Below, piece after piece: positions 7,428 to 9,063 of a DNA stretch of 34,570 nucleotides. This DNA is from Hyphomicrobiales bacterium. Its GTDB lineage: Bacteria; Pseudomonadota; Alphaproteobacteria; Rhizobiales; Xanthobacteraceae. The notes below the pieces were generated by a model, which was not told the origin of the DNA, ran no database searches, and saw nothing but the letters and a program-made list of their open reading frames with translations. Within the stretch, counting starts at the first letter, position 1. Every line of letters starts with the position of its first letter. Location of the stretch: positions 9,763 through 44,332 of the forward strand of contig PMAF01000020.1 in NCBI GenBank assembly GCA_003152455.1. Reading direction: 5' to 3'. A program made the position numbers and the translations under genes.

Positions 7428-7503
7428 AATAGAAAATTTAAAACGGGAACCTCGGAGTTCGATTCCAGAGTGGTCAGCTAGCCAGTGGCGATGTTTCACT
7501 TGA

Positions 7504-7809
7504 CAGACCCACAACAGCAATCCCGGCCAAACGGTTTATGACCCATTTCTCGGCAGCGGTACGACACTGATCGCTGCCGAGACGACGGGCAGAGTCTGTT
7601 TGGGCATGGAGTTTTAGCCACGATACGTCGACGTGGCAGTGCAGCGTTGGCAGGCGTTCACGGGCAAGACGGCGTGCCTTCTCGGTGATGGCCGTTCATT
7701 CGCAGTGGTTGCCGCTGAACGTCTGGCCGGTCTTGAGCCTACAAACCTCGGTCCGGCTCCTTCGCAACCGGCCGAAGACGCCGTCAAGAATGATCCAGCG
7801 GCAACATAA
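7504..7809 (+). pseudogene. C-terminal remnant of a DNA methyltransferase (adenine/cytosine-N4 type) with internal TAG
   Basis: Frame reads QTHNSNPGQTVYDPFLGSGTTLIAAETTGRVCLGMEF*PRYVDVAVQRWQAFTGKTACLLGDGRSF...; DPFxGSGTT motif; TAG at 7615-7617, stop TAA at 7807-7809; N-terminal domain absent. Confidence 0.82.
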
Positions 7810-7819
7810 AGAAGCGCAC

Positions 7820-8293
7820 ATGCAAGACCGAGAAAACAATCCCGCAGGCTTGAAGCCGCTGGCATTCAGCCAGCAACCGGCCTCGCAAGCTAAAAAGGAA
7901 ACAAGACCCATTCGCATTCTCGAATGCCCGCCAGAACTTGGGCCAATTGCGCGAGAGGAATGGGACCGAGTTGTCGGTGAGCTAAGTAAGTTGGGAGTAT
8001 TGAGCAGTTTTGATCGCGGTCCTCTCGCGGCTTATTGTACGGCCTACGCTCTGTGGCTTGAGGCTATGGAGATGGTTCAGAAGCACGGCGCAATGATCAA
8101 ATCGCCCAAAGGATTTCCAATCCAATCGCCATACCTCTCGACCGTGAATCGGCAAGCAGAAATAATGCTGCGAATCGCGTCCGAATTTGGTTTCACCCCG
8201 GCTAGCCGCGGTCGCATCTTTTCTTATTCAAAAAGAGATTCGCTGCTGTTGAATGCCGCAAGCGAACCTGATGGTGGAAGCTCAGGTTGGTAA
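7820..8293 (+). CDS. Phage terminase small subunit, P27 family-like
   Basis: MQDRENNPAGLKPLAFSQ...CPPELGPIAREEWDRVVGELSKLGVLSSFDRGPLAAYCTAYALWLEAMEMVQKHG...SPYLSTVNRQAEIMLRIASEFGFTPASRGRI; ATG at 7820 (in-frame with track ORF 7685..8293). Confidence 0.85.
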   Translation: MQDRENNPAGLKPLAFSQQPASQAKKETRPIRILECPPELGPIAREEWDRVVGELSKLGVLSSFDRGPLAAYCTAYALWLEAMEMVQKHGAMIKSPKGFPIQSPYLSTVNRQAEIMLRIASEFGFTPASRGRIFSYSKRDSLLLNAASEPDGGSSGW

Positions 8294-8461: not shown

Positions 8462-8475
8462 TTGATTTAAATCAA
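8462..8475. promoter_or_regulatory. FNR/FixK-type binding site (TTGATTTAAATCAA)
   Basis: Perfect 14-bp palindrome TTGAT-TTAA-ATCAA, ~20 bp upstream of TATAAT at 8496-8501. Confidence 0.7.
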
Positions 8476-8495
8476 CCTCACTGGCGGCAACGCCT

Positions 8496-8501
8496 TATAA
8501 T
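8496..8501 (+). promoter_or_regulatory. Candidate -10 element TATAAT
   Basis: Exact TATAAT; inferred TSS near 8508 would put the palindrome centre at about -40. Confidence 0.45.
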
Positions 8502-8520
8502 CTCTTTAATGGAGGAAGAG

Positions 8521-8739
8521 ATGCGCTCGCTCGGTGCCATTCGGAGGATTTTGACTAAACTAGCGGGCAGAATCGCGACCCATCGGCAGTTGTCTCATTT
8601 CAAATGCGGGGATTGCGAAACATCGGAGCGATGCGGGCGGTTGCCAAGCGACAATTGCATTGCACGGATTGAGCAGATTGAACATGATGCCGATAAATCA
8701 CGCTCTCCGTCGCAGCGTGGTTATCAAGCATCTTACTAG
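8521..8739 (+). CDS. Small Cys-containing hypothetical protein (CX2CX5CX7C)
   Basis: MRSLGAIRRILTKLAGRIATHRQLSHFKCGDCETSERCGRLPSDNC...; strong SD GGAGGAAGAG immediately upstream of ATG 8521; track ORF starts at 8509. Confidence 0.6.
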   Translation: MRSLGAIRRILTKLAGRIATHRQLSHFKCGDCETSERCGRLPSDNCIARIEQIEHDADKSRSPSQRGYQASY

Positions 8740-8799: not shown

Positions 8800-9063
8800 T
8801 CAAACCGAATGCCGCGCGCTAGCGGTAAATCGGGTTACCGCTGTTACGCCGATGCCGCCATTCGCTCCAGGCCGGTTCTCCACGATTACGGTTTTGCCCC
8901 ATTGCTCTGAAAGCTTCTGCGCCAAGATGCGGGCGATGATGTCGCTAGTACCGCCCGCCTGATAGGGCGATATGATCGTGACCGTGCGGGATGGGAACTC
9001 GCCTGCGTCAGCAGTTGTGCATACCGACAGCGCGAGCATAACTGCAATAATTCGCCAGAACAT
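8800..9063 (-). pseudogene. Truncated TctC/Bug-family tripartite tricarboxylate transporter substrate-binding protein (N-terminus only)
   Basis: MFWRIIAVMLALSVCTTADAGEFPSRTVTIISPYQAGGTSDIIARILAQKLSEQWGKTVIVENRPGANGGIGV then unrelated residues; 87 aa versus ~320 aa for the two complete copies in this window. Confidence 0.85.

Follow-up and report, generated by a model that had tools for sequence, protein, structure and literature searches.

In this study, a gene encoding a small protein with four cysteines was identified in the window, by which we mean the whole 34,570 nt stretch of DNA that was analysed. The sole conserved companion of this gene across its family is a FixK/FNR box, located either in its own promoter or in that of an apparent operon. 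The gene is probably activated by the FixL/FixJ-FixK cascade and would encode a small, probably cytosolic, metal-binding protein. The predicted promoter logic is well supported and, judging from the homologues, the Cys-rich product is part of a genuine, selected protein family, while an oxygen response and metal binding by the product we infer from its sequence and that of its promoter.

The elements of the gene and its promoter are listed in Table 1. The original prediction had described a perfect FNR/FixK-like palindrome with a TATAAT about 20 bp downstream and a strong Shine-Dalgarno sequence directly before the ATG at 8521, and a direct reading of the sequence agreed with it on all three. 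No other perfect TTGATN4ATCAA occurs in the window. When up to one mismatch was allowed, two copies were observed compared with 1.26 expected, a count which is weak evidence when taken alone.

Table 1. Positions of the four-cysteine gene and its promoter elements in the window
Feature	Position	Strand	Basis or remark
FixK/FNR box (anaerobox), TTGATTTAAATCAA	8462..8475	+	perfect 14-bp palindrome; recurs upstream of homologues
-10 element, TATAAT	8496..8501	+	20 bp 3' of the box; -10-like score peak at 19-23 bp in 15 loci
Shine-Dalgarno sequence, GGAGG	8511..8515	+	5 nt 5' of ATG 8521; sequence
Gene for the 72-aa four-Cys small protein	8521..8739	+	ORF translation; homologues; alignment
Codons Cys29 to Cys46, C-x2-C-x5-C-x7-C	8605..8658	+	alignment of members

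An alternative ATG at 8509 lies 8 bp past the TATAAT. As the homologues begin at the alignment column of Met 8521, with N-termini such as MRALDAI, MRFFDAI and MRVLDII (several being MR-x-L-D), the start was placed at 8521 and not at 8509, which had also been the earlier preference. The protein read from this start is MRSLGAIRRILTKLAGRIATHRQLSHFKCGDCETSERCGRLPSDNCIARIEQIEHDADKSRSPSQRGYQASY; its length of 72 aa and its cysteines (C29-x2-C32-x5-C38-x7-C46) correspond to the CX2CX5CX7C product of about 72 aa that had been expected.

The family comprises 18 members from Pseudolabrys (Xanthobacteraceae), other genera of the same family and one genome outside the order. A search with the single window sequence recovered homologues from 6 more Pseudolabrys genomes and from other genera of Xanthobacteraceae, while an alignment search found a family member in at least 8 of 44 Pseudolabrys genomes and one strong match outside the order (L034), which has the full Cys pattern. 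The homologue set was sampled from genomes of which many are metagenome assemblies, and the family and class searches scored only some candidates per genome, so that carrier frequencies are lower bounds. Identity to the window protein ranges from 23 to 55% among the aligned members, with L008 as the nearest relative (55%), and the dN/dS between the window gene and L008 was about 0.34-0.42. F27, C29, C32, C38 and C46 are invariant in all 16 aligned members. The exact cysteine spacing, together with the Phe that precedes the first Cys by two residues, is kept in 17 of the 18 members, so the original prediction does not fail for want of homologues preserving the cysteines; the 18th, L075, is diverged, with its fourth Cys off the standard distance and an early end. 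An HMM search of the 72-aa protein gave no match above cut-off in Pfam or NCBIfam, and no model from either collection reaches its cut-off for the family.

A strict TTGA-N6-TCAA sequence was found just upstream of the gene in 16 of the 18 members. In 15 of 17 members its distance 5' of the Phe codon is 122-176 nt, and in L075, too, the box is just upstream. The chance of 15 boxed members out of 17 was P about 4e-30, calculated from the locally observed box density with relatedness ignored. The two other members are covered by the wider pattern TTGA-N6-T/GCAA, one directly and one through an apparent upstream operon. In L009, TTGATCTGCCGCAA (TTGA-N6-GCAA) is located at 140 nt and fits the FixK2 consensus TTGA/C-N6-T/GCAA, as published in PMC9104804. 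In L016/L069, the four-Cys gene is directly 3' of a DUF6455-like gene, which has TTGATCTACGTCAA less than 100 bp 5' of it. Because the four-Cys gene directly follows this boxed gene and a cytochrome c gene comes next, it is likely that the three share an operon. Conservation of the box together with the ORF in relatives had been put forward as a check, and the pair recurs in 17 other genomes.

The position of the box relative to the promoter is also conserved. When a -10 hexamer was scored at each distance 3' of the box in 15 loci, the mean score was maximal at 22 bp and high at 19-23 bp. The best score at 20-23 bp had a mean of 4.24, compared with -1.71 (sd 1.02) when the same spacers were rotated, and none of 5000 rotations reached the real score. 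A box ending 22 bp 5' of the -10 element would be centred at the class II position of -41.5; in the window, where the distance is 20 bp, the centre would be at about -39.5 and the box end at -33 if transcription is assumed to start at 8508. The proposed centre at about -40 stands for the window itself, and the -10 offset that scores best on average in the homologues refines it to -41.5, and the proposed closeness to the class II position is borne out by the box, spacing and -10 element being kept across diverged homologues. For comparison, activating anaeroboxes of R. leguminosarum are at -32 to -34 from the transcription start (PMC7888657). In the 60 nt 3' of the box, ungapped identity between loci had a mean of 28% and a maximum of 52%; as this spacer DNA has diverged, the conservation of the box is not merely general sequence conservation.

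Comparison of homologue neighbourhoods showed that the neighbours are unrelated in most carriers. Sharing was only partial and involved a helicase gene (L059, L060, L062) and DUF6455 genes, which are boxed and adjacent to the four-Cys gene in L064, L068 and L069. The gene also precedes cytochrome c genes in L067 and L069 and is beside a NuoB-like hydrogenase or complex I-type gene in L061. One dense cluster was observed at L064:6462-9575, where three DUF6455-like genes, a CBS-BON gene and the four-Cys gene are accompanied by four FixK boxes in 3 kb. As the carriers are scattered among the Pseudolabrys genomes and the surroundings of the gene differ in most genomes, the four-Cys gene appears to have been gained and lost jointly with its box.

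In the proposed mechanism, low oxygen would lead FixL to phosphorylate FixJ, and FixJ would raise FixK. A FixK dimer would then bind the box at about -40 and recruit RNA polymerase at the TATAAT by class II activation, transcribing the four-Cys gene, which is apparently monocistronic in the window. In the product, a Cys loop (F-x-C-x2-C-x5-C-x7-C) would separate an N-terminal helix from a second helix, and the four cysteines would most likely hold one metal centre; in low-oxygen metabolism, the protein could serve as an accessory electron carrier, a cluster holder or a redox adaptor. An AlphaFold model of the window protein, of low confidence (pLDDT 57), has a helix at 3-25, a loop and a helix at 47-60. 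A Foldseek search with this low-confidence model gave no match. An amphipathic membrane helix was rejected, as hydrophobic moments were mostly no better than those of shuffles. A DUF1127-like N-terminus was rejected as well, with 0 of 16 members matching the Pfam model at E<=1 and a regular expression finding no DUF1127 sequence in the loci retrieved.

With respect to the metal, the C-x2-C-x5-C spacing equals that of FNR and FeFe-hydrogenase and is followed by a fourth invariant Cys, therefore a single Fe-S cluster, predicted as an O2-labile [4Fe-4S], is slightly favoured over Zn. The [FeFe]-hydrogenase distal Fe-S domain (PF22609) has both C-x2-C-x5-C and E-F-x-C-G-x-C in common with the family. 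Its profile gave weak matches in 6 of 16 members (best E 6e-4; PDB hits at E about 0.3), all of them under the Pfam cut-off, and the window protein, at 14.6 bits, is under the 27-bit gathering score and does not qualify as a member. The fourth ligand in the hydrogenase domain is His. Similar spacings are also possible in Zn sites, and it is conceivable, at less than even chances, that the four cysteines form a structural Zn knuckle in a protein- or nucleic-acid-binding regulator, giving feedback or acting as an adaptor in the low-oxygen network. The size of the protein, its basic N-terminal helix (net charge +6 in the window protein) and its compact Cys loop would suit such a Zn-stabilised mini-regulator, for which FixK-dependent small regulators such as FixT are a precedent, but Fe-S ligands are suggested by both the C-x2-C-x5-C spacing and the weak PF22609 matches, and no Zn-finger family was matched.

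With 103 copies of TTGAYN4RTCAA compared with 4 of a reversed control pattern, the source genome of 4.75 Mb (314 contigs) is rich in FixK/FNR boxes, and its count is the highest of the 44 Pseudolabrys genomes. The median count was 47 in carriers and 24 in non-carriers (Mann-Whitney p 0.024), some of the non-carriers being incomplete genomes. The genome encodes a FixK-like protein, whose best NCBIfam match is FixK (E 4.5e-74, below the model cut-off) and whose recognition motif ETVSR has the E..SR form of a FixK/FNR-type recognition helix, and a FixJ above cut-off. Genes adjacent to boxes include hypC and one for a hydrogenase small subunit, and genes for a PEP synthase and a cytochrome c were found 315 bp and 241 bp from a box, respectively; a DUF6455-like gene is also among the genes beside boxes. 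The presence of boxes next to genes known as FixK-type targets, and of FixK and FixJ in the genome, further supports class II activation of the four-Cys gene by a FixK/FNR-type factor. At L120:670-2000 in this genome, a box is located between hypC and the gene for a hydrogenase small subunit, which are oriented divergently. L099 (G000 contig C95:20500-27942), a stretch of this genome as well, is box-rich and has two DUF6455-like genes, one of them 51 bp after a box. In Bradyrhizobium, ppsA is a FixK2-box gene (PMC9104804).

FixK is the likely activator of the four-Cys gene in this reading. The same promoter logic could be served by another CRP/FNR paralogue, either FnrL/FnrN-like or an NO-responsive Nnr/Dnr, in which case the gene would answer anoxia or NO and not FixLJ-sensed micro-oxia. 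The TTGA-N6-TCAA site is common to paralogues of the CRP/FNR superfamily, and the source genome has at least 12 further CRP/FNR-type HTH proteins (HTH_Crp_2) above the Pfam cut-off, at least 13 in total, including an FnrL-like one with the recognition helix E-T-I-S-R. Against this, FixK and FixJ are both present in all 8 Pseudolabrys carriers (among all 44 genomes, FixK in 37 and FixJ in 38), and the four-Cys gene of L069 is located between fixK and fixLJ, which makes control by another paralogue unlikely.

A further reading, for which we would allow only a slim chance, is that the protein represents the FNR sensor loop in miniature, free-standing form, with its four cysteines holding an O2-labile [4Fe-4S] and its binding to another protein returning oxygen or NO status to the low-oxygen network. 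Such feedback would arise because the protein is made only when FixK is active. In E. coli FNR, Cys20, Cys23 and Cys29 have the same C-x2-C-x5-C spacing and the fourth ligand is the distant Cys122 (PMC4214427), whereas in the four-Cys family the fourth Cys is 8 residues on. The fourth ligand sets FNR, the hydrogenase domain and the four-Cys family apart.

That box and ORF are unrelated chance features beside phage debris would be compatible with the decayed patch around them and with the fact that one perfect box in 34.6 kb is only modestly surprising, but it is effectively ruled out by the conservation of the pair and its spacing in 17 further genomes, whose spacers have diverged and whose neighbouring genes are mostly unrelated.

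The surroundings had been described as a decayed accessory patch, and a phage terminase, a broken methylase and a TctC fragment do flank the gene. At 7441-8290 of the window there is a C-terminal remnant with in-frame stops, presumably of a methylase from its DPFLGSGTT motif, followed by an ORF for a P27-type terminase small subunit. On the other side, 8800-9063 on the minus strand encodes a truncated 87-aa N-terminal fragment of a TctC-type solute-binding protein. Phage cargo was rejected as an identity for the four-Cys gene, as no terminase gene was common to the homologue neighbourhoods compared, and a search of phage records, plasmids (with the relative L037 as query) and viral contigs found no homologue.

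The results add an unannotated family of four-Cys mini-proteins whose function, through its linkage to the box, can be tested in a low-oxygen setting, and they provide a clean case of small accessory genes enlarging a regulon.

Among known proteins, those of DUF6455 (PF20056) are likewise small and alphaproteobacterial and contain C-x2-C-x5-C plus one more Cys, but their loop is longer and ends in YCPN, and their N-terminal part is also longer. Membership of the four-Cys family in DUF6455 is not supported (0 of 16 members at E<=1, hhalign probability 1.5%). With the FixK/FixK2 regulon genes of Rhizobiales, such as fixNOQP, hemN, hsp20 and ppsA (PMC9104804, PMC7888657), the four-Cys gene shares the box consensus, the position relative to the -10 element and ATG, and the presence of FixJ and FixK in the genome. 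The host differs from these systems in that ccoN (cbb3 oxidase), sought as a positive control in the source genome, was not found, therefore this is not a textbook FixK regulon. The four-Cys family was not identified among the FixK targets described in the available part of the Bradyrhizobium FixK2-regulon literature. The regulation is of a familiar kind, while the four-Cys mini-protein family itself is new to annotation.
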